From a virus, in IMG/VR virus record IMGVR_UViG_3300045012_000175, positions 1-38,599 of that record: a stretch of 38,599 nt of DNA; one strand, written 5' to 3'. Positions 14,926 through 36,006 of the stretch are shown here, in pieces. A program made the position numbers and the translations under genes. Positions within the stretch are counted from its first letter, which is position 1. Each line of letters begins with the position of its first letter. The notes under the pieces were generated by a model. It saw only the letters and a list, made by a program, of their open reading frames with translations, did not search any database and was not told the DNA's origin.

Positions 14926-17900
14926 ATGCAACAAATAGACCGCAGAGTTTTTAAGGATGGCCAGTTGGATACTGATTCAGGGAGTATATTCCTGGGTCAA
15001 AACTCATGGGTCAATATGAGGGATTTTCGCACTGGCTCGACGGACACTCAGCAGGGAAGGGTGGATTATCTGCAGTCCATCGGGAGTACGATATTGAAGG
15101 TGAACAATGCGCTGCCGCCAACTATTACGACTCCACCCATATGTCTCGGTCATGCGCCTGATTTCCCGTATAAAAGAATTATTTACGCGGTATGGACGCC
15201 GGAGGGCAATAACGGGTGGTTTTGTTATGATATCCCAAGTGATACGGTCTACACTGTGCTGCTTGATGCGCAGGTAACTGGCGGACTTGGATTCGATAAG
15301 TACCATCCAATCCACTCAGCCTTCGTACTCAATCACTGCGTTTACTGGACTGACAATAACCAGCAGCCCCGCCGGGTGAATATTGATGCTGGGATTAAGA
15401 TGAACCAACCCAGCTACAGTACGCCATTCCTCCCATACACTGCCCCACTCGACCCCTCCATTATCAGTTGGATCCGTAGGCAACCCGGTATGCCGCCGAG
15501 TTTTATTAAAATTACACAGACAGTTCCGCCGATAACTACCAATTTTATTGCGCCGGAAGCCTTTCAATTCTGCTACCGGTATGTATATAGAGACTTCGAA
15601 ACAGGCACCCTATCGGCACTCTCTGCTCTCAGCAACTTCAATAGCCTGACAGACACTTTTAACCGTATCGACGTCAGCATTCCGCTACAGGAAAAAATTC
15701 AACAGGATGTTGTGCAGATCGACCTGGTGGCACGGTACCTCATTTCTGGCGTATACTTCATCATCAACTCATGGCAGACATCCGTTCCTGCGGACGCCGC
15801 AGCTATCGCTGCGCATAACGCGGGTACGACTCCGCTCATGTACTCCTTTTATAATGACAAGGTGGGCATCGCGCTTGATTCAGCGTATTCAATAAAGCCG
15901 TATGACAATGTGCCATTGCTTGCAGGAACAGTAGAGGCCGCTAAGAATCGCGGATTCATGGCTGATGTGACACTTGGTTATGATTCGCCGCAGGTCACCT
16001 CCTTAGCAGTCACGCCAAATAATCAAACAGCGAGTAATATCCTCACAGGACGCTGGTTTTTATTTACATTCAACTCCGTATGCGCAGGCGTATCGTCAGG
16101 TACGCAGTCGTACTACCTTTTGGATATCACAAACCTTCCGGATCCAACGACACGCGGTTATTATTACGCCGGATCTGGCGCTGGAATTCCACCATTCCCA
16201 GGATCATACGCATGGACGGGACTGACATTTGTTGGTGCAGGGCTCTTCGATGTTATGAATCATTTTCAGCCTGGGTGCACAAACTCGATACTAGGTTTCG
16301 TCAATCAATCTGCAACTACCACTATCACGGGAGGACCGATACCACCGGCAGTAATCGGAAGCACGGTGTTTAAGACAGATGCTTCTTACCAGGCAGCAGT
16401 GACTTTTTACGACTATTACGGAAGAAAATGCGGCGTTGTTACCAATCCGGGATTGAAAACATATATAGCTGACCGGACGTACAATCAGCTATCCTATACC
16501 GTCGGCATCGACTGGACGCTGAGTAATGCGGCAGCACTGGCCGAAATTCCACCATGGGCGTACTACTATTCTGTTGATTTGAGTAACTGCCTTCGCACGC
16601 GATTTTTCCTGCAGGCACAGGCGCAGTTTATCTGGTATGCTGCTATTGATCCATCTAGCGGGCTAACAACGTTTTCTACCACCACATATGCACCGACGCT
16701 TGCCGGTGTTGCTGTGGACATAAGCGCCTTGGACAGCTTCGGGCAGGGGTACGTATTTGCAAAAGGAGATATATGCAAACTATATTTCCCAAATCCTGTA
16801 GGCGCAACTACACCGAAGTCTGAGTTTCGCCTCTCCATTATAGGCCAGGATAATCAGTTTATTATTTGCCAACTTGCCGATGTGGGAACCGTTGGCGGAA
16901 CAACGCCATATAACGGCGTACCTAGTTTGTTCGAAATATATACCCCATATCAAGCGATACCGGATGAACCATACTTTGAAGTAGGGCAGTTATTTCCGGT
17001 TACTAACCCAGGACTGAGTACCCGCGCCTACAGTGTTATCGCCGGAACTTTCGCCGGAGACGTATATATAATGAACCGAAATAATACAACTCTCGCATTC
17101 CCATCGGCTGGTGAAAATTATGGCGCTGAGAACATGAACCCAAACGATACGTTTTACCTGAACTGGTTTACAAATGCCGGACGTCCGAATTTCGTTGATA
17201 CTATCGGCCAGGTAAATCAAACAGCATCTGGTGCGTATTCGAATACGTTTATCCTGGGATCTAAAATTAACGGATTATCTACGTTCGATTTGTTCAATAC
17301 ATTCGATTTGTCTCCTGATTATGGTACGATCATGAAACTGGTACTGACTAATAAAATACAGTTCACAGGGAGTATCATGCTGGCGATCTGCAGTGGTGGT
17401 GAAACAGCATCACTTTATCTTAATGAAAATGTCATCATAACAACGACCGGGGAAACACTTATTACACAAAGTTCCAGCGTGGTTGGCTATATTAATAACC
17501 TAAAGGGAAGTTACGGGACGCTGAATCCTGAGTCGGTGGTAGAGTTCCGTGGAAACGTATATTGGTACGACGCGCTAAATGGGAAGTATATTCAGTATTC
17601 TGATAGTGGGTTGTTCCCAATCAGCAACTACAAGATGACGAGGTATTGGAAGTTGTTTACGCAGCAGTATAATTCGATGACGCCGGCGCAGATCGAAGCA
17701 CTCGGTTCAAGGCCGTACGTGTTCTCTGGTATAGACCCACACCATGGTGAGCTTCTGGTATCTGTCCCGCGTGTCCTTGCCACGCCGCCCATGGGCTACC
17801 TCGTTGACTACCCCGGAGTGCCGTATCCAGGGGATTTCTGGGATGGGCAGGCGAAGAGTGCGGTGTATAAGATTTCCGCTAATCCGAATAAATGGACAGG

Positions 17901-18384
17901 TTCTTATAGGATGCCAGCGGAGCAGTACGCATACATGGAAGACAATCTGTACGCGTTCTACCAAGGAAACATCTATCTGTGCAATTCCACTACCAGCTTC
18001 GGGAATATTTTCGGTACAGAAGTGTTTCCTGATATCTGTTTTTACTCTAACGCCGCTCCTAACAGTCCGAAGGAATACAACAACGCTGTCCTGCAGGCGA
18101 ATATGGAACCGGTATTCACGCATTTTGCTACGGAATTCCCTACTGTGCAGAGCAGCATCCCGCTGCAGTGGACTGAGACGGAAGGAATCTGGTATGCGCC
18201 GATTTTGCGCGATAGGTTGACCCTGAAGTATGCCGGAGATTATAACGGAGCGATGTTCGGAGGTGACAAAATACGAGGGACTACGATGCAGACTTACATG
18301 CAGTTCGACGCCTCTTTTGGTCTGGTACAGATAAAGTTTTGTAATTTAACATACAACCTGAGTAAAGGACAGGTATATGCGTAA
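14926..18384 (+). CDS. Muzzle/stabilisation-like large tail protein
   Basis: An 1152-residue, beta-strand-rich protein, the third-largest product of a virion gene in the window by role and the second by size. It begins RRVFKDGQLDTDSGSIFLGQ with NSWVNMRDFRTGS, the 'G-l--d------i--g---n--N-rv' entry typical of phage stabilisation/muzzle proteins. Strand repeats rich in aromatic residues follow (WTPEGNNGWFCYDI; VYWYDALNGKYIQYSDSGLF), suggesting beta-propeller or similar modules. It is preceded by three ring/adaptor-like genes, as in crAss-like phages where the muzzle closes the tail. The exact fold cannot be confirmed here. Confidence 0.68.
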   Translation: MQQIDRRVFKDGQLDTDSGSIFLGQNSWVNMRDFRTGSTDTQQGRVDYLQSIGSTILKVNNALPPTITTPPICLGHAPDFPYKRIIYAVWTPEGNNGWFCYDIPSDTVYTVLLDAQVTGGLGFDKYHPIHSAFVLNHCVYWTDNNQQPRRVNIDAGIKMNQPSYSTPFLPYTAPLDPSIISWIRRQPGMPPSFIKITQTVPPITTNFIAPEAFQFCYRYVYRDFETGTLSALSALSNFNSLTDTFNRIDVSIPLQEKIQQDVVQIDLVARYLISGVYFIINSWQTSVPADAAAIAAHNAGTTPLMYSFYNDKVGIALDSAYSIKPYDNVPLLAGTVEAAKNRGFMADVTLGYDSPQVTSLAVTPNNQTASNILTGRWFLFTFNSVCAGVSSGTQSYYLLDITNLPDPTTRGYYYAGSGAGIPPFPGSYAWTGLTFVGAGLFDVMNHFQPGCTNSILGFVNQSATTTITGGPIPPAVIGSTVFKTDASYQAAVTFYDYYGRKCGVVTNPGLKTYIADRTYNQLSYTVGIDWTLSNAAALAEIPPWAYYYSVDLSNCLRTRFFLQAQAQFIWYAAIDPSSGLTTFSTTTYAPTLAGVAVDISALDSFGQGYVFAKGDICKLYFPNPVGATTPKSEFRLSIIGQDNQFIICQLADVGTVGGTTPYNGVPSLFEIYTPYQAIPDEPYFEVGQLFPVTNPGLSTRAYSVIAGTFAGDVYIMNRNNTTLAFPSAGENYGAENMNPNDTFYLNWFTNAGRPNFVDTIGQVNQTASGAYSNTFILGSKINGLSTFDLFNTFDLSPDYGTIMKLVLTNKIQFTGSIMLAICSGGETASLYLNENVIITTTGETLITQSSSVVGYINNLKGSYGTLNPESVVEFRGNVYWYDALNGKYIQYSDSGLFPISNYKMTRYWKLFTQQYNSMTPAQIEALGSRPYVFSGIDPHHGELLVSVPRVLATPPMGYLVDYPGVPYPGDFWDGQAKSAVYKISANPNKWTGSYRMPAEQYAYMEDNLYAFYQGNIYLCNSTTSFGNIFGTEVFPDICFYSNAAPNSPKEYNNAVLQANMEPVFTHFATEFPTVQSSIPLQWTETEGIWYAPILRDRLTLKYAGDYNGAMFGGDKIRGTTMQTYMQFDASFGLVQIKFCNLTYNLSKGQVYA

Positions 18385-18631: not shown

Positions 18632-18824
18632 AAAGCCGGTGTTGGTTGAAACGCCACTTGGGCAAGGATATGTGTGGTATGTGACAGACGGGAAGATGTT
18701 TGAGAATGATTGTTTCACTGTGATACTGATGGAAAGCGGAATTGTGAAGCATTTTACGAGTGAGCAGATAAAGGTGAGTAAAAATTATACGTATGGGATC
18801 GGGATCAACGACAAAGACCGGTAG
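18615..18824 (+). CDS. Hypothetical small protein
   Basis: A 69-residue, strand-rich protein (KPVLVETPLGQGYVWYVTDG, CFTVILMESGIVKHFTSEQI) resembling a small SH3-like barrel, with a short C-terminal tail. No family is recognised. It overlaps the genes on both sides (17 bp and 32 bp) in the virion operon, between the muzzle and the acetyltransferase. Confidence 0.48.
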   Translation: MIHEFEKPVLVETPLGQGYVWYVTDGKMFENDCFTVILMESGIVKHFTSEQIKVSKNYTYGIGINDKDR

Positions 18825-19272
18825 GCTGACAGCCATCCAACTTGCTCCTGTACAGTTCTTTGAGTATATAAAAGAGAGGATTACAACGCAATCCGAAAGG
18901 GCGTATATAGATTCGATTATGATACCTGGAGTGCTTGGGCCGAACCCTATCTATTACACGTTCTGGCTGGGGATTGATCATGTACGCGAACTGATTGTGT
19001 GCGAGGCTTATTTTAAGGGCGAACCAGTGAAGGGAACAGTGGAGATCGGATATCAGGTTGTTAATGGGTTCGAGTATCAGGGATACACGTCGGAAATGGT
19101 TGGGTTGCTGGTGGATGTGGCTCGCGGGATCAGCGAGATAAGGACACTGGAAGCGATAGTAGCCGATTGGAATGTGCACTCAAAGCGAATTTTGGAGAAA
19201 AACGGATTTAAACAAATAGCCAAATCTACGGTGGACGGTATCAGCGTGGGAGTTTGGCACAAAAAAGTATAA
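18793..19272 (+). CDS. GNAT-family acetyltransferase
   Basis: A 159-residue protein with GNAT motifs. GTVEIGYQVVNGFEYQGYTS is the strand-4/motif A region, where 'GYTSEM' occupies the acetyl-CoA pyrophosphate loop. LEAIVADWNVHSKRILEKNG, followed by FKQIAK, is the motif B pattern of RimI/RimJ-type enzymes. Its placement inside the virion operon is unusual: such enzymes acetylate amino groups of proteins, small molecules or sugars. The N-terminus is Gly/Ser-rich and overlaps the preceding gene by 32 bp. Substrate unknown. Confidence 0.75.
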   Translation: MGSGSTTKTGRLTAIQLAPVQFFEYIKERITTQSERAYIDSIMIPGVLGPNPIYYTFWLGIDHVRELIVCEAYFKGEPVKGTVEIGYQVVNGFEYQGYTSEMVGLLVDVARGISEIRTLEAIVADWNVHSKRILEKNGFKQIAKSTVDGISVGVWHKKV

Positions 19273-21747: not shown

Positions 21748-23966
21748 CAGCGATAATGGATTTCCTGAATAAGAATCCGCAAGCGTCCTCAGCGGACGTG
21801 ATGAAGGCATTTCCTGCCGTGAAAGACGAAAAGACCGCTGACGCTGTATTCGGATATGCGCATGGGCTTGAACAGGGGAATTCACCGAAGAAGCTGCAGG
21901 GGTTGTTTCCGGAGTTGTTTGCACAACCTACAGCACACCAGGCAGCAATTAAAGACGCCACAAATACACTAAATTCCGCCTATGCGTCACCAGCCGGAGA
22001 TAAAGCTATCGACTACCTTAATAAGCAAGCGCACGATATGGCGTTTTACAATTCGCGCCAACAACAACTTCAGGGCCAGGACGCAACCGCTCGTCAGGTA
22101 CTTGCACCACCAATGCTGCATCAGACGGCCCAAACCATGCGTGATCAATACCGCCAAGATAATCCTGACCCAACGAGAGAAACGATTGCTGCTATCGGGC
22201 ATCTTGATCCAACGCAGCAAGGCGATCTCAATGCCGCAACATACCTCAAGGATCGCCAGAGTGATGGTGACAGGCAGAAGCAACTCGCTAACGCAGCCGC
22301 GATTAAGAAAGGCGACCTAATGTACAACGTACATACTGGCGCACTCACAAAACCTCTCGACCCACTTGAGTCAATCGCTTACGGATGGAACCAGAGAAAA
22401 CAGTCTATGGCTGGGTATGATACGCTCACCAACAGCCCTGATGCTGACGTAAAGACCTATCTCAACAATCAGGTAGCAAAAAAAGATCCCGATGAGCCTC
22501 AGCCGAAACCATATAACTGGGGTACACTCACATCAGGTATTGGTTCTGAAGCAATCCCGACATCTAAAATGATTATAGCAGGCGCTGCTGCAACAGCTAC
22601 CGGAAACCCTGAACTCGCTCCTGCCGCAGCAGCACTAGCAACATCGAGCGAATACTACAAACGTAATTACCACGACAGTATGGTACGTGTATATGCTGAT
22701 GCGAAGCAAAAAGGTATGAGCGATGATCAGGCCTTGGCATACGCGCGTCCGATAGCCGAGAAAGATGCAGAACTGAGTGTTGTGCAAAATGCAGCTATGA
22801 CAGCAGCAGGCGCAAGACTCGGAATGGGAGATGAAGGTTATGAGGCGTTTAATCAGCCTGGCGTAAAGAAAGTACTTGGGACAGCTATTAATAATATGGG
22901 TAAGTTCGGTAAGAACGCGCTCAAAGAAGGAACGGCTATGGGCGCATTGTCTGCTGGCGTGCAAGGTCAGGAGAATATAAATGAAGGTAAGAATACTACA
23001 GACAACATGCTCGAAGCTGGCGAAATGGGTGGAGTTATGCCAGTCGCGCTCGGCCTGATGATTCATGCTCCTAAGGAAATTATTTCAGGCCATGGTTTGA
23101 ATGTTGTAAAGCAAGCACTAACCCAGGTGCCGACCGAAGCAATTAATAGCGAGCTTGGATCTATGGTACAGGACGGCAGCATCACGCCAGATAAAGCCAT
23201 GGACATTACAAAGGCTATTGCTGATCATAAAGCGAAAGACGCGGCGATTCCACCGTCCGTTAAAGACCCTGAAGCGCGTGTTCAGATTCAGGATAAACTC
23301 GATAAGCGCGCCGTCCTCCAGAAGCAACTCGAAACGTCCGCTGAACCATATCACGAAGCCATTAAAGAAAAAATAGCAAATATTGACACAGACATACAGG
23401 CTATCCCTGCAAAAGTACGTGAACAACAAAAAGCCGATGAGGCCGAACCTAAAACTACACAAAATGCCGTTCCAAAGCAAAGCCCAGATGCGGTATCTGT
23501 TTCTAAAGAACCCGGCGCTGGCCAAGAGGTGGGCAGCGGAACAGAAGGTAGAGGGCAAATCGTTCAAGAAAATGCCGGAGCACAAAACACCGAAAAAACC
23601 ATAAGCAATGAACAAGCCACAACCACAAGCCAAAGCAGCACCAAACTTTCAGACAGGAATGGTGAACCCAGCAATGCTGGCGGGAAAGAAAAAGAAGGGC
23701 CGCAAGCCGCAGAAGCCACTAACGCCAATGCCACAGCCACCGGCGAGCCAGGCGACGGACGGATATTAAACTTCCGAACGCCGGACGAAGTGGATAGGAT
23801 CATGCGTCAGGATATTCCGAAGGAGTCCAGGAACGCCCAGGTTGATGTGGCTTCCGTGGATCCAAAGACCGGAGAGGAAACGACCGAGCAGGCGCCTGCT
23901 CGCCGGGTGCATATAGACCTGAAGCGGCAGTATAAAATACTCGATAAAATACTCGGATGCTTGTAA
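21729..23966 (+). CDS. Polyvalent internal virion protein A (745 residues)
   Basis: A 745-residue protein with no enzyme motif that I can identify. It starts with the small helical domain shared with the preceding gene. Long helical segments follow. Around residues 265-300 (TLTSGIGSEAIPTSKMIIAG, AAATATGNPELAPAAAALAT) there is a small-residue-rich, possibly membrane-active stretch, with a further AAMTAAGARLG repeat later. From about residue 535 the chain becomes charged and disordered; residues about 579-625 also carry an overlapping small gene in the +1 frame. It ends with a 12-bp tandem repeat in its DNA. Polyvalent virion proteins of this type are ejected into the host with the DNA. Confidence 0.5.
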   Translation: MDEKDLAAIMDFLNKNPQASSADVMKAFPAVKDEKTADAVFGYAHGLEQGNSPKKLQGLFPELFAQPTAHQAAIKDATNTLNSAYASPAGDKAIDYLNKQAHDMAFYNSRQQQLQGQDATARQVLAPPMLHQTAQTMRDQYRQDNPDPTRETIAAIGHLDPTQQGDLNAATYLKDRQSDGDRQKQLANAAAIKKGDLMYNVHTGALTKPLDPLESIAYGWNQRKQSMAGYDTLTNSPDADVKTYLNNQVAKKDPDEPQPKPYNWGTLTSGIGSEAIPTSKMIIAGAAATATGNPELAPAAAALATSSEYYKRNYHDSMVRVYADAKQKGMSDDQALAYARPIAEKDAELSVVQNAAMTAAGARLGMGDEGYEAFNQPGVKKVLGTAINNMGKFGKNALKEGTAMGALSAGVQGQENINEGKNTTDNMLEAGEMGGVMPVALGLMIHAPKEIISGHGLNVVKQALTQVPTEAINSELGSMVQDGSITPDKAMDITKAIADHKAKDAAIPPSVKDPEARVQIQDKLDKRAVLQKQLETSAEPYHEAIKEKIANIDTDIQAIPAKVREQQKADEAEPKTTQNAVPKQSPDAVSVSKEPGAGQEVGSGTEGRGQIVQENAGAQNTEKTISNEQATTTSQSSTKLSDRNGEPSNAGGKEKEGPQAAEATNANATATGEPGDGRILNFRTPDEVDRIMRQDIPKESRNAQVDVASVDPKTGEETTEQAPARRVHIDLKRQYKILDKILGCL
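23464..23604 (+). CDS. Overprinted small gene, MPFxSKAQ family
   Basis: A 46-residue frame inside the gene at 21729-23966, in the +1 frame. It begins MPFQSKAQMRYLFLKNPALA and continues KRWAAEQ..., ending in a Lys/Pro-rich tail. This matches a very common group of short phage and bacterial proteins that begin MPFKSKAQ-R-LFA---P-(I/L)A--WA and end in K-LP-. The host frame here is a low-complexity disordered linker, so the conserved coding is in the alternative frame. The ATG at 23464 follows an A-rich leader (ACACAAAATG). Function of the family is not known to me. Confidence 0.72.
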   Translation: MPFQSKAQMRYLFLKNPALAKRWAAEQKVEGKSFKKMPEHKTPKKP

Positions 23967-26318: not shown

Positions 26319-26495
26319 ATGTTATTATGGTTAATGAATCTTGGATTTGCAGGTGGTACACAATTTATTCCATCATCCCCGCCTCCACCAGTAAGTCAGT
26401 CGGGGGATGGTGTCAGAAAACACGAAAATCATTTAGACGACGATTATGAAGCTATACATCAAATGTTAAATGCCTTTCTTATATGCCAGGATTAG
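26319..26495 (+). CDS. Small protein (58 residues)
   Basis: Starting at ATG 26319 (or 26334), the frame reads MLLWLMNLGFAGGTQFIPSS, then PPPPVSQSG, then DDDYEAIHQMLNAFLICQD. It has a hydrophobic start, a Pro/Ser/Gly linker and an acidic helical end. It fills the gap between the appendage-like gene (ends 26315) and the 1533-residue gene (starts 26483), overlapping the latter by 13 bp. No family is recognised. Coding character is good for its length. Confidence 0.55.
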   Translation: MLLWLMNLGFAGGTQFIPSSPPPPVSQSGDGVRKHENHLDDDYEAIHQMLNAFLICQD

Positions 26496-29400
26496 GCCCA
26501 TGTGCAGGTAAGAGCCCACTCGGGGCTGACGAACAGAAGTATCTGCTCGATGAGTCCGCGCGCCATCAGAAGAACGGGCTGTCAGTAGAAGATGCAGACA
26601 GGCAGGCCGTTCGTGAATTCCAGCATAAAACACTCGATTCGCTGCAGGATATTTACCGCCAGATTGGTATTAAAGGCCATGAACCGGCAGCACCGGCAGC
26701 GGCTGAACCAGGTGCTGATGTACTTGAGGCGAGACACGCCAATACCGAACACGACGAGCAGCAGATTGTATCAGGACAGAACAAGCTCGGCCTCAGTGAC
26801 CTTGGTAAGAAGGATGCCGCAGCGTTGCGTGATCAGGTCCAAGCCGATCATGCGCCCACCAAAATAATTTCCTCTGACCTCCCTCGTTCAAAAGAAACGG
26901 CAGATATTGTTGCCGATGGTAAGATACCTGTTGAAACAAGGCCGGAGTTGCGATCTTGGGATCTCGGTAAGTTCGGTGGCATGAAAGACGCTGAATTTAA
27001 GCCTGAACAAAAGTATTTCGTCGAGCATCCGGACGCTACCGAGCATAATGGGAAGACGCTGGGCGAGAGCTTCAACCAATACAAAGACCGCGTTATCCAG
27101 GCGCGCCAGAATGTTGACGATCCGGACGCTATGTTAATCAATCACTCTAACAACATGGCTATCTGGGATGCATACCAGAAAAATGGCGGTAAGTGGGACG
27201 AAACCGCAGCCAAGGACTACCTCGCATCAAAGACGCCAGAGCCAGCGACGCTGCATTCCACACCAGAAGAAGAAGCAACGGCCAGCGCGGTGAAGGCCGG
27301 AAAAATTCCCGATTCAGAAATCAAAAAAGCTATAACCGATGAAATCACATCCCGCAGCGGTGTTCAGCCACGCGATCAGCGGCAACCAGGACATGATGAA
27401 GCTAATGGAAAAGTACGACGCGCCAACGAAAAAACGGATAATGAGGGGAGCGCTCGTGCGTCTGTCGAAGGGAAAACCGCTGGAGCAGAACCCGAAACAG
27501 GAGGCGCCAGAGTATCCGCCGATACAGGCGCCGCAGACAAAGCTCATATAGAGTTTGAGAAGGAAGTCGAAGCCGCATTTGCCGGCGGTCGAGTGAAAGG
27601 AAAAGTCATCACCGACGAAGGCAACCGCGTATGGATTGAGGCTAAGGATGGGACGAAGTACCCGGTTGCGAAGAAGGATATTCTGAAGAGTGGTGAATCT
27701 GTGCTGGATAAGTATCCGAAGGCGAAGCTGGGGGAGCAGGGGGAGAGCGCGGCGGTTACACCAAAAGCATATTCAGACCCTGGGCGGGCATTAGAAACTA
27801 TTCGCACTGAGACTCCAGATCTTAAACGCGCAGCAGATTTCCTTGAACCAATACTGCGCGGCAAGAAAAATATCAGTATAGAGAATGTAGAAGGATTAAA
27901 GGATCCACGCTCAGGTGCAGCAGCACTGGGCCTTGCTCATCCTGACGGGCGCATCCAGGTTGATTTTGCAGCCCATCGTTCCATGGATGACGCGCACCAA
28001 ACGATTGTCCATGAGTTATTGCACCAAGCAACTAGGACAGAGATCGAGACAAACCCGGCGTTCAAACAAGAGGTGTCAGGGCTACTCAACGATATTCGAA
28101 AAGCTATGAAGCTACCTGTTGGCAATACAGGGGATGTAATGATCCCGGCTTTGGTAGAACGCGGCGTTATCCCTGCAGAAAAATATGGAGCCAGTAATGA
28201 GCATGAGGTAATTGCGGAAGTATTCTCTAATCCGAAGTTCCGATCAATGCTGGAAGACATGAAAGCTCCTGACGCGCCAAAAGAGAATATGCTGCAGCGG
28301 GTGGTTAAATCCATTGTGCGGTTTTTCAATCGCAAATATGACGCTCTGCAAAATGTCAAAGGCCGTATATCGGCAACCGATATGGCTGACCATTTGATGC
28401 AACTTACTGAAGGAACGGTTAAAGCCGCTGGGACGAAGGGCGACGCACTTGCGCTCGCAGCCGGCCTAAATCCTGAAGAACAGGCAGCGGCAAATTTTAT
28501 AAAGCGGGCGCCGGATAGCATGAGCGATGGAGAGCTGGGGGATATCCTTGAAAAGCATTCTGGATTGGATCGGCCAACTATCAACCAACTTATCAACGAT
28601 CACCGTGAAACGCTTGGTGCCGGAGACGATCCTGAAGCCATGGTCAAACGCGCACTTGAAATCGGCAAGCAAACTTACGCTCAGAGCAAACGCGACCCCT
28701 TAGCGCCAAAAATGCCAGCGGATACACCGAGCACGATGAACAAACTCTCGCGTTGGTTCGGTGGACGCCAAGATGAAGTGACTGATGTAAAGTCAATTAT
28801 CAGGACGAACAAAGGACAGGAAGAGCACGATCTGAATGCAATCTACAAGGCCAGTAATGACCTAAGAGATATGTGGAATAAGAAAAGTCGGGAGCAGCAA
28901 CTGGCATTTCAGCTTATGATGCAGAAACCGGGACTCCTGAAAAATCAACCAATGGAAGTGCAGGCTGCCGCAGAAGCATATAGAAAACGCTTCGATGCGA
29001 GTTTCGACATGATTCAGTCTGTGGCTCCGAAAGCGTCATACCTTGAAGATTATTTTCCCGGCTTTTGGAAGAAACCAGATCAGGTAAGGAATTTCTTTGC
29101 CGACGCTGTGAGTAAATCGCCATTGGAAGGCAGTAAGAGTTTCCTCAAGCAGAAATTCTTCGATACTATTCTGGATGGTCTGCGCAAAGGCTACAAACCG
29201 ATCACGTACAACCCAGAAGAAATGGTACGTCTGGCAGAAGCGAATGCCTACAAATTTAAGACCGCGCACGATATTTTGTCTGATATGAAGGATAAAGGAT
29301 TGCTCCAGTATAGCATCGGTAAAGGCGATATTCCAAATGGATGGCAGACGATAAAAGACCCATTGTTTCAGCGTATGAGTCTCTACCTCGATCCGAAAAC

Positions 29401-31084
29401 TGGCGATCCCGAGATGGCCAAAGGCGCATATTACATGCCTCCGGAAGTAGCGAAGCTGATCAACGACTACCAAAGCCCCGGCCTCCGTGGCCCGGCAAAG
29501 ACAGTGATTCAAACATACAACAACATAAAAAATACTTTCCAGCTTGGCGTCGGAGGATTCCACTTTGTTACCACAGCTATTGATAATGCTGTGACAGGAA
29601 CGAGTATCGGGCTGCAGAAATTGAGTCACGGAAACATCCTCGGTGGAATCGGAGAACTGGCGAAGTCAGCCTCCTTCATCCCAACAACAGTCGAGTCTCT
29701 CTATAAGGGCTTCAAAGCCGTCAAGGACTACAACTCCGGCAAGATGACCGACGATGTTCAGAGTTTGATTGATGCAAATGCGCGTGTTGGGAAACAGCGC
29801 ATGTATACTCTCGACGCGCAATATAATATGAAGAAGGCCTGGGGCCAGATGCTTGCCAATAAAGATGCACGCCAGATCCTTCCGTTCCTCGGCAATAGCG
29901 CTATGTATCTGCCGGAAGCCATAAATAAGCCACTCATGGAACGGTGGGTACCGGCGCTGAAGGTTGGTGGCTACCTCAGATCGTTGAAGTCTGAAATAGA
30001 GGCACGTCCGAATATGACTCCGGAGGAACTACAAAGTGCAAAAGAGAAAATCTGGGATTCCATGGATGACAGGCTCGGTCAGGTTGTGTATGATAATGTA
30101 TTCATGAATAAATCATACAAAGACCTTGCATTTATGGCTATCAGGTCTGCAGGTTGGACTGGCGGTACAATCAGATCTGCAGTAAAAGGGGCTGCGGAGA
30201 TTCCACTATCCGCATCGAGACTGGTGAAGGGCGAAGGTATCACTCAACGCACGGCCTACATGCTGGCACTTCCACTCACCGTCGGTTTCTTTGGCGCGGC
30301 GTATCATTATATGAATACCGGACAAGCGCCGGACTCCCTGGAAGACTACTTCTACCCAAAAGACGGAACGAAAAATCCGGATGGAACGGACCACAGAGTT
30401 ACGCTGCCATCGTATATGAAGGATTATATAAGTTATGGGAATAAGCCAGTGGAAACGCTCATGCACAAGACCAGTCCGATAGTGAACGACGCTGTTGAAC
30501 TGTATCAGAATAAAGATTTTTACGGCGTGCAGATAGCGAACCCAAAAGATCCTATGTATATGCGTGGACTCGAACGACTCGAATACGAGGCAAAAACAAT
30601 GGTCCCATTCTCATTTAAGAGTCAGCCATACACCAATCCAACGCCAAAGCAGCGTATCGAGCAGGGCTTTGGACTCTTGCACGCTCCAGTAACAGCAGAA
30701 CGAACCGACACGCAGAACGCCATCAGTAAAGCATATGTTGATCAGATGGGTCATGAAGCAGAAGGCAAAACACAGGCGGATCTTGAAAAACAGGTTGCGC
30801 GTAAGCATCTCCGTGAGTTCCTGTTTAATGGTGGAGAGTATGACGACGCAGATCCTGAGATGAAGAAAAAGGCCGATATTAGTGACAAGGCGCTTACTAC
30901 GTTTATTAAGGAGGGGAAAATGGATCCGTACGAAAGGTACTTCTCGCATTTAAAGTCCGACACTAAAATTGAATTATATAAGCAGATGAAACCTGCTGAT
31001 AAAGAAAAATATATTCAATACATGCCAAAGGACTGGGAGAATCCGGATGAGCCGACTAACTCACAAATAGTACCACTCAAATGA
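26483..31084 (+). CDS. Polyvalent protein B: histidine phosphatase plus metallopeptidase
   Basis: A 1533-residue multidomain protein. Residues about 80-235 form a histidine phosphatase (phosphoglycerate mutase-like) domain: RHANTEH (catalytic R84, H85), SSDLPRSKET (R135), RSWDLGKFGG, and INHSNN (H221). Residues 355-405 form a small beta domain. Residues about 450-620 form a zincin metallopeptidase with HELLH at 510-514 and a downstream EHEVIAEVFSNP (E575/E579 as likely third ligand). The rest is helical with hydrophobic stretches near 1010-1080 and 1250-1270, and a DYFYPKDGT segment typical of phage large polyvalent proteins. It is probably packaged and delivered into the host cytoplasm. Confidence 0.78.
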   Translation: MPGLGPCAGKSPLGADEQKYLLDESARHQKNGLSVEDADRQAVREFQHKTLDSLQDIYRQIGIKGHEPAAPAAAEPGADVLEARHANTEHDEQQIVSGQNKLGLSDLGKKDAAALRDQVQADHAPTKIISSDLPRSKETADIVADGKIPVETRPELRSWDLGKFGGMKDAEFKPEQKYFVEHPDATEHNGKTLGESFNQYKDRVIQARQNVDDPDAMLINHSNNMAIWDAYQKNGGKWDETAAKDYLASKTPEPATLHSTPEEEATASAVKAGKIPDSEIKKAITDEITSRSGVQPRDQRQPGHDEANGKVRRANEKTDNEGSARASVEGKTAGAEPETGGARVSADTGAADKAHIEFEKEVEAAFAGGRVKGKVITDEGNRVWIEAKDGTKYPVAKKDILKSGESVLDKYPKAKLGEQGESAAVTPKAYSDPGRALETIRTETPDLKRAADFLEPILRGKKNISIENVEGLKDPRSGAAALGLAHPDGRIQVDFAAHRSMDDAHQTIVHELLHQATRTEIETNPAFKQEVSGLLNDIRKAMKLPVGNTGDVMIPALVERGVIPAEKYGASNEHEVIAEVFSNPKFRSMLEDMKAPDAPKENMLQRVVKSIVRFFNRKYDALQNVKGRISATDMADHLMQLTEGTVKAAGTKGDALALAAGLNPEEQAAANFIKRAPDSMSDGELGDILEKHSGLDRPTINQLINDHRETLGAGDDPEAMVKRALEIGKQTYAQSKRDPLAPKMPADTPSTMNKLSRWFGGRQDEVTDVKSIIRTNKGQEEHDLNAIYKASNDLRDMWNKKSREQQLAFQLMMQKPGLLKNQPMEVQAAAEAYRKRFDASFDMIQSVAPKASYLEDYFPGFWKKPDQVRNFFADAVSKSPLEGSKSFLKQKFFDTILDGLRKGYKPITYNPEEMVRLAEANAYKFKTAHDILSDMKDKGLLQYSIGKGDIPNGWQTIKDPLFQRMSLYLDPKTGDPEMAKGAYYMPPEVAKLINDYQSPGLRGPAKTVIQTYNNIKNTFQLGVGGFHFVTTAIDNAVTGTSIGLQKLSHGNILGGIGELAKSASFIPTTVESLYKGFKAVKDYNSGKMTDDVQSLIDANARVGKQRMYTLDAQYNMKKAWGQMLANKDARQILPFLGNSAMYLPEAINKPLMERWVPALKVGGYLRSLKSEIEARPNMTPEELQSAKEKIWDSMDDRLGQVVYDNVFMNKSYKDLAFMAIRSAGWTGGTIRSAVKGAAEIPLSASRLVKGEGITQRTAYMLALPLTVGFFGAAYHYMNTGQAPDSLEDYFYPKDGTKNPDGTDHRVTLPSYMKDYISYGNKPVETLMHKTSPIVNDAVELYQNKDFYGVQIANPKDPMYMRGLERLEYEAKTMVPFSFKSQPYTNPTPKQRIEQGFGLLHAPVTAERTDTQNAISKAYVDQMGHEAEGKTQADLEKQVARKHLREFLFNGGEYDDADPEMKKKADISDKALTTFIKEGKMDPYERYFSHLKSDTKIELYKQMKPADKEKYIQYMPKDWENPDEPTNSQIVPLK
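27339..27551 (+). CDS. Overprinted small gene inside polyvalent B
   Basis: A 70-residue frame (+1 relative to the 1533-residue gene). Part of it reads GNQDMMKLMEKYDAPTKKRI, then MRGALVRLSKGKPLEQ, a well-formed helical, basic sequence with a clear Pro-rich end (APEYPPIQAPQTK). The host frame over the same bases is a disordered linker (DNEGSARASVEGKTAGAEPE) between the histidine phosphatase and the next domain. A start at 27339 or at the ATG pair 27393/27396 is possible. I cannot name the family, so this is less certain than the overprinted gene at 23464. Confidence 0.5.
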   Translation: MKSHPAAVFSHAISGNQDMMKLMEKYDAPTKKRIMRGALVRLSKGKPLEQNPKQEAPEYPPIQAPQTKLI

Positions 31085-31657: not shown

Positions 31658-33691
31658 ATGTACGGAGAAATAAAAGGTGGGACGAAATATGTGATTATGG
31701 ATGCGTTCAACGTTCCCATGGATTGTTGGGTGCCACCGGTTGGGTATGGTATTGATTCTATTACAGGCAAACTTGAGAAGACAGATATCATAAAGAGATC
31801 TACGAAAACAAAAGATCAATATTGGGAACGCGAGGACTTGCCTGATTGGTATGATAAAAAAAGAGAACTCGAAGAAATTAAGCAGCAAACAGTTCCTGAT
31901 TACACAGATCCTGATTGTGAAAAAATCAGGGAATCACACTGGCGCAGAAGATTGCGCGGTTGTTGGTTCTACAACGATGGTGTTCCGACATACATTACCG
32001 GCTTGCATTGGTTGGTGGTTAACTGGTGGAAATTCCAGGGGAAATATTTTGATTTCCGTATTCCAAACATGGAGTTTTTTTATTTCCTGCAGTACTGTAT
32101 TGAAGATCCGCATTGTCTCGGAACAATTGAAATAACAAAAAGAAAAGAAGGGAAGACGGCTAGGGCTGGCGCATTCATATATGAATACATTTCACGTACA
32201 TCAGCAAAACATGGAGGCATCCAGTCTAAAACAGATCCAGATGCCAAGGAAGTTTTTTTAAAAGCAGTGCGTGATCCGTGGAGAAAACTTCCACATTTCT
32301 TTAAGCCAAAATATGATACATCAAAGGGTACGGCCCCAGATACTGAACTCCGTTTCTTCAATCCATCTAAAAGAGGCAGACCAAAACTTATCTCAGAAAA
32401 AGAAGAAGAGGCGCTAGAATCTTTTATCAACTTTGAATCGAGAAAAGAAGGTGCTTACGATGGCCCAGAATTGCACCGGTATGTATCTGATGAGGCTGGG
32501 AAATTAAAAGACGTTTCAATTTTAAAAAGACATAGCGTTGTTCAATTCTGCTCAGAGGTAGATGGGGAATACGTGGGGGTTCAATTGTACACAACAACAG
32601 TCGAGGAAATGGAGTCTGGGGGCAGCGAATTTTTACAGTTAGTAAAAATGAGTGACAGGAGAAAACTGGATGCAAACGGAAGAACAGCATCAGGGCTATA
32701 TCCGTATTTCCTCGCAGCATTCAGAACTCTTTATTATAATATATACGGTAAACCAGACGAAGAAAAAGCGAAGATTTATTATATGAACACTCGCGCATCT
32801 CTTCAATCAAGGCCACGCGAGTTGTCATCTTTCATCAGGAAAAATCCATTCACGCTTTCTGAAGCATTCCGTGTTGATGGAGAAAAGTGTTTGTACGATT
32901 CGGAAAAATTAAATAATCGCCGTGATTGGCTTTCATGGCACGATAATATTACAGAGCAAGGGAATTTCGCGTGGATAGAACCAGGTAACATCGCAAAAGG
33001 AGTTCGGTGGGAAGCGTCAAAAAACGGACGTTTTGAAATTGCCTATACCCTAAAAGAAAGTGAAGCAAATCGCATTCTCGTTTCGGGTGATCAATTCGCG
33101 CCAAACAATAATCATGCTTTTACTATGGGATGCGATCCTTATAAGTTTAAAGATAGTGAGGATAGTCGTAGGTCTGATTGCGCAGCATTCGTATATCAGA
33201 AATTTAATATTCAGGAAGAGTTAAAGGAATATAATGACGCTTTTGTTTGTAAGTACAAATATCGTGCATCGTCAACAGGAATGCAGTATGATGATATTTT
33301 GAAGATGTGTGTATACTATGGGTGTCAAGTTTTATTTGAAATAAATATCGGAACTGCGCCACTCGATTATTTCGGTACTAAAAAATGCGGGGCTTTTTGT
33401 ATGAAATTACCCGGAGAAAAGGAAGCAGGCATATATACTGACGGTCAGGGACAAGTACTATCGCAGTTATGCGATCTGACAGAATCATGGATTGATTCAA
33501 GTTGTGATAAGTTATTGTTTATTGATCTATGTGACGACTGGCTTGAATTCAATCCGGCAAAAACTACTAAATTCGACTGTGCGATGGCAGCAGGATTTGC
33601 CCTTATCGCATGCAAGAAAAAATATAAAATAAAAGACGAATCCTTGAACAATGAAGTAACTAATTTCTTCAGACAACACGTAGCATCATGA
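31658..33691 (+). CDS. terL: Terminase large subunit
   Basis: A 677-residue packaging ATPase/nuclease. The Walker A-like loop is ITKRKEGKTAR (residues about 159-169, K166-T167), the Walker B is LHRYVSDEAGK (D278, E279), and QLYTTTVEEMESGG (about 309-322) is the coupling motif. The C-terminal RNase H-like nuclease has FTMGCDPYKF (D493), QVLFEIN (E561) and TTKFDCAMAAG (D640). It moves DNA into the prohead through the portal and cuts the concatemer. The start is TATAATATG after the upstream stop; the stop overlaps the portal start by ATGA. Confidence 0.92.
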   Translation: MYGEIKGGTKYVIMDAFNVPMDCWVPPVGYGIDSITGKLEKTDIIKRSTKTKDQYWEREDLPDWYDKKRELEEIKQQTVPDYTDPDCEKIRESHWRRRLRGCWFYNDGVPTYITGLHWLVVNWWKFQGKYFDFRIPNMEFFYFLQYCIEDPHCLGTIEITKRKEGKTARAGAFIYEYISRTSAKHGGIQSKTDPDAKEVFLKAVRDPWRKLPHFFKPKYDTSKGTAPDTELRFFNPSKRGRPKLISEKEEEALESFINFESRKEGAYDGPELHRYVSDEAGKLKDVSILKRHSVVQFCSEVDGEYVGVQLYTTTVEEMESGGSEFLQLVKMSDRRKLDANGRTASGLYPYFLAAFRTLYYNIYGKPDEEKAKIYYMNTRASLQSRPRELSSFIRKNPFTLSEAFRVDGEKCLYDSEKLNNRRDWLSWHDNITEQGNFAWIEPGNIAKGVRWEASKNGRFEIAYTLKESEANRILVSGDQFAPNNNHAFTMGCDPYKFKDSEDSRRSDCAAFVYQKFNIQEELKEYNDAFVCKYKYRASSTGMQYDDILKMCVYYGCQVLFEINIGTAPLDYFGTKKCGAFCMKLPGEKEAGIYTDGQGQVLSQLCDLTESWIDSSCDKLLFIDLCDDWLEFNPAKTTKFDCAMAAGFALIACKKKYKIKDESLNNEVTNFFRQHVAS

Positions 33692-36006
33692 TACCCGAAG
33701 CAAAATCAGAATCAGAGAAAGCCAGTTTATCTACGTTCCCACTCGATAGCATCGACCCTGCGAAGAAGGATGGTACGTGGGGATTGGCTTGGGCTAAGGC
33801 CGCTTACTACAATTTCCAGTATTTCGTGCCAAGAACTTGCTTCTACAACTCTGCTGACAAATACGAGGAACTTCGCCTGTACGCGCTCGGACAAGTTCCA
33901 ATTAACAAATTCAAAAAAATGTTCGGCGTGGACGAACAGACAAACCTCTCCTGGCTGAATATCAACTGGACACCTCCGCATGCTATTGGTACGATCAGAG
34001 ATATCGCCATTTCAAGAATGTGCCAGCAGGAATACGATATTGTTGCCACCCCCATCGACCCGATGGCAAAGTCTGACGCTGATGCGCTGTATGCTGCACT
34101 TCGCGCAAGAGTGGCGATCAGAGAACAGGCGCAAAAAACAAACCCACAACTCGCGCAGCATCCAATGGTGCAGGCACGTCCTGGTGAACCGATGGATGAA
34201 GAGGAATTGAATATGCGGCTAGAATTCGGAGAACAATTCAATCGCAGCAAGGACGCCGAGCAGGCCATCAAACTCGGCATGTACGAGAATAACGAACACA
34301 ATTTGCGCCGTGGTTGGTACGAGGATTTTTTCGACGTTGGTGTGAGTGGATATATTGAATGGCTGGATAAGACGACGAACAAACCGAAAGCTGAAAAGAT
34401 TAATCCTGAATCTTTCATCACATCCTATTCACGATTTAACGACTTCCGAGATCTCAGGTATGCGGGACCGATAGTCGATATGGATATTACTGATCTTGCC
34501 ATGATTCGCAACAAAGACGGCGAACCGACATTCACCGATCAGCAACTTGAAATGATGGCCAGCGACGTCGCCGGACGCTGGGGAAATCCGCAGATACTCG
34601 GGAGATCCAGTTACTACTTCAAGGGCTTCGACAGATTTAAAGTAAAAGTGCTGAAGCTACGCTGGAAATCCTACAATGACTATTACTATAATGAATGGAG
34701 AGATAAAACAGATAACCCACAGTTTGAGTTCAAGAACTATTCGACCGCGCAGAATTCGAAGAGAAAGTACCCATCCAAAAGAGTTGAAGTGGCATACGAA
34801 ATTAGTTGGGTAGTAGGAACAGATTACTATTTTGATTTCGGTCTAATGGAAAATCAGTCCCGATCAGCGGACCCGACAAAGAAAGGCGCTGTCTCATTGG
34901 GGATCAAACTCTTTGCTCCAAACTTTTACGAAATGAGAGCAGAGGCTATGATGGAAAGATTACTGCCGATCATGGATCAGTACCTCATGAACTGGTATAG
35001 GATTCAGAATCTGAAAAACCGAATGATACCCAGTGGTTGGTGGATTGATCTTGATGCTCTTGAATCAGCCGCGCTCACCAAAGGCGGCAAAAAAATGACT
35101 GCACTGGAATTGCTAGATATGTTCTTCCAGACAGGAGTGCTAGTTGGACGAAGCAAGGACATTATGGGCGATACGAATGTCAATTATAAACCAGTTATCC
35201 CCATACAGAATTCTATGTTTCAGGACTTAGTAGCGCTGTTCCAGGATATGGGAGGCCAATTGATGTCAATGAAACAGACCGTTGGACTAAACGACGTAAC
35301 GGATGCTACGACGCCTCCTGAAAGAATGCTCGTGCCAGGTATTGAATCAGCGAATCAGGGAACGAATAACGCGCTATATCCTATGCAGTTTGGAGAGAAA
35401 CATCTCTACCAGCAACTGGCAAACGATATTATGATCCGTACCCAACAGGGACTGCAGAAAGGTGGTGTATCCGGCTGGGGACCGTCGCTTGGAAGTAACA
35501 CACTGAAATTCATCGAAGTTGATAAAGGACTTGCGCTCAGAAATTTCGGTATCATGCTCGAAGAAAAGCCCTCTGACGATCAGCGCATGTTCCTGATACA
35601 GCAATTCCAGCCTGACCTGATGAATGGGACACTCGACGTATCTGATTGCATTGTCGTAATGAATACCTACAATACCAAACAGGCTGCGATGTATCTGAGT
35701 TGGAAAGTGAAGAAAAATAAGCAACAGGTGCAGCAGAATGCCATGATGAATTCTCAGCAGCAGATTCAGGGATCGCAGCAGACCGTACAGATGACGCAGC
35801 AGTTTGAGATACAGTTGCAACAGTTGAAAGATCAGGCGGCACAGAGTAAGGCGGAAATGATGAAGGAAATGGATGTCAGGATTGCTCAAATTAAAGCGGA
35901 TGCTATGGAAAGTAAAGGGCATCTGGATAATCTAGCCAAGGTCAGCGTGCAGCAGTTGGCCAATCAGGCAAAGGCACAACCGGAGACAGCACCGATGACA
36001 CCGTAG
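33688..36006 (+). CDS. Portal protein
   Basis: A 772-residue protein immediately after terL. It begins with an N-terminal arm and YYNFQYFVPRTCFYNSADKY, then LRLYALGQVPINKFKKMFGV and SWLNINWTPPHAIGTIRDIA, the pattern of crAss-like portal vertices. The middle holds the clip and stem regions (MMERLLPIMDQYLMNWYRIQ). From about residue 670 the chain is a Gln-rich coiled coil (QQIQGSQQTVQMTQQFEIQL). Length and position match portals of this phage type (about 770-800). Twelve copies would form the DNA entry ring. Confidence 0.85.
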   Translation: MIPEAKSESEKASLSTFPLDSIDPAKKDGTWGLAWAKAAYYNFQYFVPRTCFYNSADKYEELRLYALGQVPINKFKKMFGVDEQTNLSWLNINWTPPHAIGTIRDIAISRMCQQEYDIVATPIDPMAKSDADALYAALRARVAIREQAQKTNPQLAQHPMVQARPGEPMDEEELNMRLEFGEQFNRSKDAEQAIKLGMYENNEHNLRRGWYEDFFDVGVSGYIEWLDKTTNKPKAEKINPESFITSYSRFNDFRDLRYAGPIVDMDITDLAMIRNKDGEPTFTDQQLEMMASDVAGRWGNPQILGRSSYYFKGFDRFKVKVLKLRWKSYNDYYYNEWRDKTDNPQFEFKNYSTAQNSKRKYPSKRVEVAYEISWVVGTDYYFDFGLMENQSRSADPTKKGAVSLGIKLFAPNFYEMRAEAMMERLLPIMDQYLMNWYRIQNLKNRMIPSGWWIDLDALESAALTKGGKKMTALELLDMFFQTGVLVGRSKDIMGDTNVNYKPVIPIQNSMFQDLVALFQDMGGQLMSMKQTVGLNDVTDATTPPERMLVPGIESANQGTNNALYPMQFGEKHLYQQLANDIMIRTQQGLQKGGVSGWGPSLGSNTLKFIEVDKGLALRNFGIMLEEKPSDDQRMFLIQQFQPDLMNGTLDVSDCIVVMNTYNTKQAAMYLSWKVKKNKQQVQQNAMMNSQQQIQGSQQTVQMTQQFEIQLQQLKDQAAQSKAEMMKEMDVRIAQIKADAMESKGHLDNLAKVSVQQLANQAKAQPETAPMTP

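Follow-up and report, generated by a model that had tools for sequence, protein, structure and literature searches.

The question raised by this locus is whether one and the same stretch of phage DNA, positions 23464-23604 of a 38,599-base IMG/VR viral record (the whole of which is called the window here), serves to encode two different proteins. A complete open reading frame of 46 codons, from ATG to TAA, is located there on the plus strand, entirely within an open reading frame of 745 residues and in phase +1 of this longer host gene (Table 1). The product of the small frame is MPFQSKAQMRYLFLKNPALAKRWAAEQKVEGKSFKKMPEHKTPKKP, and the host residues across the nested stretch are NAVPKQSPDAVSVSKEPGAGQEVGSGTEGRGQIVQENAGAQNTEKTI. 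A previous reading, made from the sequence alone, had proposed a conserved small phage gene in this place, and its coordinates, frame and product proved to be correct. With a probability of about 85%, we consider this stretch to be truly dual-coding: the longer gene harbours, in its +1 frame, a small phage gene that is conserved. In relatives, the pattern of selection demonstrates dual coding, and for the window itself codon choice and initiation context make it very likely.

Table 1. Coordinates of the nested gene, its host gene and other features of the window that are referred to in the text.
Feature	Position	Strand	Basis and remarks
Nested gene, 46 residues, phrog_1375 family (MPF[KQ]SKAQ-type)	23464..23604	+	ORF list, profile match
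Host gene, 745 residues	21729..23966	+	Frame -1 relative to the nested gene; polyvalent-like via weak similarity to class-2 hosts
Helical-looking segment, host residues 462-559	23112..23405	+	Weak collinear similarity to the segment preceding the nested gene in class-2 hosts
A-rich initiation-like stretch before the nested ATG	23446..23463	+	61% A; A at -3, -12 and -13
Terminase large subunit	31658..33691	+	phrog_6681, E 1.3e-63; used for phage placement
Portal protein	33688..36006	+	phrog_6547, E 5.5e-66; used for phage placement
Post-portal gene, 405 residues	36909..38126	+	Remote homologue of the class-1 host gene, E 8.5e-6; without nested gene

The small product belongs to a known family. 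A profile search assigned it to phrog_1375 of PHROGs v4, which is listed there as being of unknown function, with an E-value of 1.2e-4 (residues 3-45 against positions 17-60 of the 70 in the profile). In a second profile search (E 7.8e-6) it was the sole match to the family in the record. The 'MPFKSKAQ' group recognized by the sequence-only reading thus corresponds to phrog_1375, and homologues of the product, for which a database search had been suggested, do exist. No match to the product was found in Pfam or NCBIfam, and a literature search yielded no paper mentioning MPFKSKAQ or phrog_1375. The product is small and basic, the MPF[KQ]S..Q motif stands at the start codon, and both the MPFKSKAQ-type N-terminus and the basic tail are shared with the family. 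An AlphaFold2 model with two helices (residues 6-15 and 17-30; mean pLDDT 77, pTM 0.42) predicts a short helical hairpin followed by this tail.

Free-standing members of phrog_1375 are independent genes, several of them just downstream of the portal or terminase gene, whereas the window copy is situated inside another gene and about 10 kb upstream of the portal gene. Adjacency to portal or terminase is a habit of the family rather than a defining feature. At free-standing loci, 7 of the 10 upstream genes tested match portal, head-tail adaptor or terminase families, and in Mycobacterium phage Indlulamithi the copy is found directly behind the portal gene. Because the free-standing members reside in modules for the head and for packaging, in the vicinity of portal or terminase, the most likely role of the product is in virion assembly or packaging, as judged solely from the neighbourhood of these free copies.

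A degenerate DNA pattern for MPF[KQ]SKAQxRYLF is present in 52 IMG/VR contigs, and a looser pattern gave more. Against these 52 viral contigs, the tight MPFKSKAQxRYLF pattern was found in none of about 85,000 bacterial and archaeal genomes, suggesting that the carriers are mostly virulent phages. Among the matches listed from a profile scan, 123 copies are embedded in a long open reading frame in the same phase, one in the other phase, and 52 are not nested; these counts include near-duplicates, and the search patterns favour this subfamily. Once contig-edge cases are removed, 121 nested and 39 truly free-standing copies remain among the matches listed. Two copies that were first counted as free (L145 and L082) are nested copies of the class 1 described below that are truncated at the end of their contig. 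Over the full length of the small gene, its frame +2 is open in all 121 nested copies and in none of the 39 free ones, while the chance of such openness is usually below 1%. The long frame is also coding on both sides of the overlap, as indicated by the third-position excess in class 1.

The single copy in the other phase (L126) is read as a class-1 copy with an indel, in which the family tail is lost after residue 27. In the window and in several other hosts it is the other phase that is easier to keep open by chance, so that the common phase cannot be put down simply to codon make-up. Two further observations concern class 1. Its host genes contain many +1-frame ATGs (1495) and very few +2-frame ATGs (9), a bias that may limit the phase available for nesting. 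Furthermore, one nested gene (L171, 3791-3931, minus strand) lacks about 12 middle residues, and both frames are open across the shortened part.

The host genes fall into two classes. In class 1, comprising about 107 loci among the matches listed, the nested gene is located near the N-terminus of a gene of about 400 residues behind the portal gene. In class 2, it lies within a giant gene of polyvalent-like character, some 450-1100 residues from the N-terminus. Similarity between the two classes of hosts is limited to the nested stretch, in which [NDH]A[VI]xxxx..., the frame-shifted image of MPFKSKAQ, is read in all hosts. The class-2 phages, elemo and Panino all possess a clear homologue of the class-1 host after the portal gene (E 7e-70 to 3e-79), and in the class-2 records and elemo the sole family copy is found in the giant gene, not in the post-portal gene. 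Each of 27 whole records contains exactly one family copy. Thus, a single-copy gene sits in different host genes among related phages.

In Flavobacterium phage elemo (NC_055853.1), a family member at 52379-52507 is contained in gp18 (48718-59802). This copy, which belongs to class 2, again lies within a giant structural gene in the phase seen elsewhere, and is unannotated. Its host gene is 3694 residues long, and its product (MPFKSKAQMKACYSQDNPKW...) is only a distant relative of that in the window. The uncultured podovirus ctfjg026 has a copy at the same place, in a host that is only 23% identical to gp18. No copy could be detected in Cellulophaga phages phi38:1, phi19:3 and phi18:3, Tenacibaculum phage Gundel_1 or Maribacter phage Panino. 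Since isolated relatives (phi38:1, Gundel_1, phi19:3) do without the gene, it is not essential to the whole group.

The window host gene had been called polyvalent in the sequence-only reading. Neither a significant Pfam nor a significant PHROG domain is present in its 745 residues, so that the several recognizable enzymatic domains of a polyvalent protein are not seen, and what is retained of the label is a weak similarity to the class-2 giants. Homology to class-2 hosts outside the nested stretch is weak: the segment of residues 462-559 aligns with an E-value of 0.004, the best score against more than 2000 shuffled decoys, and a BLASTP alignment with one class-2 host (L055; E 2.6e-4) includes the nested stretch. 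A minus-strand match between window positions 23118-23648 and another contig (L034) was rejected as an antisense image of the small gene; it reveals no host homologue.

With about 745 residues, the window host is much shorter than the class-2 hosts (1000-3700 residues), and past the nested gene it adds only about 120 low-complexity residues. Both features would suit an artefactual long frame, in which the true end of the 745-residue gene lies upstream of 23464 and the small gene simply follows it as an ordinary gene. However, when the small protein is kept and its codons are reshuffled, the long frame is stop-free by chance in only about 1-2% of cases, and the actual frame stays open for another 362 nt. 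In class 2 and elemo, moreover, the long frames extend beyond the nested gene by hundreds to thousands of codons. An artefact of this kind is very unlikely.

Openness of the +1 frame is in itself not informative. In 32% of synonymous reshuffles of the host stretch, in which the host amino acids are kept, this frame is stop-free by chance, and openness was therefore rejected as evidence of a gene. The score of the frame against the family is more telling. By an HMM built without the window sequence, the nested frame scores 65.5 bits, as compared to a best value of 37.3 among 60,000 open reshuffles that preserve the host protein. The codon choice of the host gene therefore exceeds the needs of the host protein, in favour of the small protein.

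It could be imagined that only one frame is functional, and that the resemblance to phrog_1375 is a by-product of a conserved linker motif in the host, or that the gene in the window is a dead relic. Every nested host reads a similar motif at this place ([NDH]A[VI][QP]...), so that host conservation could carry the small frame, and the window phage lacks close relatives for testing, none having been found for the 745-residue host in viral or genome contigs. Against this explanation stand the reshuffles, the best of which fall far below the real score, and the existence of homologues that are free-standing and have no host at all. In relatives, too, the signature of selection points to the small frame, with frozen third positions in the host and the most change at third positions of the small frame. 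One functional frame is thus an unlikely explanation.

This signature is most apparent in class 1, for which 89 distinct hosts were compared in 424 pairs. Differences at 4-fold sites of the host amount to 5.6% inside the nested gene, 38% upstream and 40% downstream. Divergence at host codon positions 1, 2 and 3 is.221,.114 and.117 inside, vs.202,.120 and.376 downstream. The drop is seen in 38 of the 39 disjoint pairs (median 0 vs 0.289, Wilcoxon p 2.5e-11); in the disjoint pairs, changes that leave the small protein unaltered reach 2.05 times the share expected under neutrality, and the others about 0.6. The third-position excess of the host is also present upstream, which indicates that the host gene is already coding before the nested gene. 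As to the long frame, no constraint on its amino acids is seen across the overlap other than openness and the usual rate of change, and it behaves as a tolerant linker, in agreement with the low-complexity linker described by the sequence-only reading.

Synonymous change in the long frame is likewise suppressed over the overlap in class 2. Between two of its hosts (L028 and L055), 0 of 19 4-fold sites differ inside the nested gene, as against 53% upstream; the most closely related class-2 pairs differ too little to strengthen the case. For elemo vs ctfjg026 the values are 0 of 9 inside and 59-61% outside. The claim that the conserved signal resides in the short frame is borne out by the freezing of host third positions in both classes, and codon-level conservation is not confined to the long frame. 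A comparison of 4-fold change in the small frame between nested and free copies is confounded by overall divergence and was dropped as proof.

The start codon provides a further argument. Since the small frame is always in +1 of the host, a single programmed +1 frameshift on the long gene could also explain the arrangement, resulting in a truncated host protein with a tail from the small frame and no separate protein. However, in the matches scanned a start codon directly precedes the PF motif or, once, stands one codon before it. At least 147 contigs have the motif with ATG, and when the motif was searched with a first base other than A, the 7 hits were 5 GTG, 1 TTG and 1 ATG one codon earlier. 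The start codon belongs to the motif, which speaks for separate initiation rather than for a frameshift. Upstream there is also an embedded context resembling that of initiation sites, and the free-standing members are complete genes. A frameshift is therefore highly improbable.

As for this context, Flavobacterium johnsoniae does without Shine-Dalgarno sequences, and positions -3, -6, -12 and -13 tune initiation (PMC6847099). A Shine-Dalgarno-like site is found in 0 of 107 loci of class 1. The number of A residues at the four positions averages 3.13 before the nested ATGs of class 1, vs 1.62 for other +1-frame ATGs (p 6e-32), and 2.27 vs 1.45 in class 2 (p 0.005). In the window, three of the four positions are A, and the A content of the region from -18 to -1 is higher than that of all 28 other +1-frame ATGs of the host gene. 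By analogy, this resembles a Bacteroidota-type initiation context. Ribosomes on the 745-residue gene would read the nested bases as a tolerant, disordered linker, and the basic 46-residue protein would arise from independent initiation at the AUG inside this gene (23464), where the context is rich in A, weakly structured and of the Bacteroidota type. We infer translation in the window phage, this mode of initiation and a host among the Bacteroidota.

How the nesting came about is a separate matter. The sequence-only reading had proposed that the polyvalent gene grew through an older small gene. Dual coding has held up, in relatives through the signature of selection and in the window through codon choice, and growth through the small gene is not established. 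A free-standing copy in this position, as predicted for relatives, was not encountered: in distant relatives the gene is nested, in the same phase, and free-standing copies were found only in other phages. For class 1, where the gene is still at its usual place after the portal gene, plausible routes are expansion of the long gene through the small one, or extension of the start of a downstream gene across it. For the window and class 2, either relocation of the gene or a separate nesting event has to be assumed; a tree of the 46-residue family, with about 50 columns, is too short for counting nesting events. A rather speculative and on balance doubtful possibility is that the nested gene travels as a dual-coding cassette: a copy without stops in its second frame could land in the disordered linker of an unrelated gene, add an in-frame linker to it and stay a gene. 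If true, this would explain why a single-copy gene switches host gene among related phages with its phase kept constant. The constant phase across non-homologous hosts fits a cassette carrying both frames, although the independent hosts are so few that the coincidence cannot count as strong evidence.

In tailed phages, most of the known nested genes come from lysis cassettes. Spanin partners work together, whereas the host gene of the phrog_1375 copy differs between phages. In cases of classic overprinting, it is the short or younger frame that is new; in the present family, in contrast, the short frame is widespread and the long frame forms the variable layer. The spanin gene Rz1 of phage lambda is embedded in the +1 frame of Rz with a start of its own, and such genes are often missed by annotation (PMC6139136). 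The gene described here likewise lies wholly inside a longer gene, in the +1 frame and with its own start. Unlike in Rz1, no lipoprotein signal is apparent, and a product without cysteine cannot contain a lipobox. A survey of spanins encountered no family with both embedded and non-embedded members (PMC6139136), while phrog_1375 has both. Overprinting in which two proteins are made from one stretch, one of them disordered, is common in viruses (PMC7017920), and the arrangement proposed here would be of this kind.

This small family from the head module comprises free-standing as well as nested copies, the latter in no fewer than two non-homologous host genes and in the same phase. In its nested form, it spans a large group of marine and freshwater phages that are related to elemo and to crAss-like phages. 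As the free form can be used as an outgroup, the family offers a natural experiment on the beginnings of dual coding. The coding in two layers is very probably real and is of a kind overlooked by annotation pipelines; the family yields a specific rule for gene callers, and the copy in gp18 is missing even from the annotation of the cultured phage elemo. Furthermore, a conserved motif in phage linkers that are otherwise unrelated, [ND]AxQxQSTxExxV, is explained as the frame-shifted image of the nested gene.

The terminase and portal proteins of the window are distantly related (about 25-27% identity) to those of Flavobacterium elemo phages, Cellulophaga phages and Maribacter phage Panino, and in a portal tree the branch of the window is too long for placement. 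A protein of 1152 residues (14926-18384, plus strand) matches the crAss muzzle protein PF25731 with an E-value of 4.9e-5, below the cut-off of Pfam, hinting at a crAss-like podovirus. Four bases past the stop of the nested gene, a second open reading frame of 53 residues begins in the same frame (23608-23769, plus strand). It has no family match and no counterpart behind the nested gene in relatives, and probably owes its openness to the low-complexity linker of the host. Among the structural genes, a GNAT acetyltransferase-like gene (PF13302, E 1e-8) is found at 18793-19272 on the plus strand. A 1533-residue protein (26483-31084, plus strand), for which no close relative was found in viral contigs, has an N-terminal histidine phosphatase domain (PF00300, E 6e-23). 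It also contains a VHELLH motif resembling that of zinc peptidases and is similar to a class-2 host (L074) over a short stretch.
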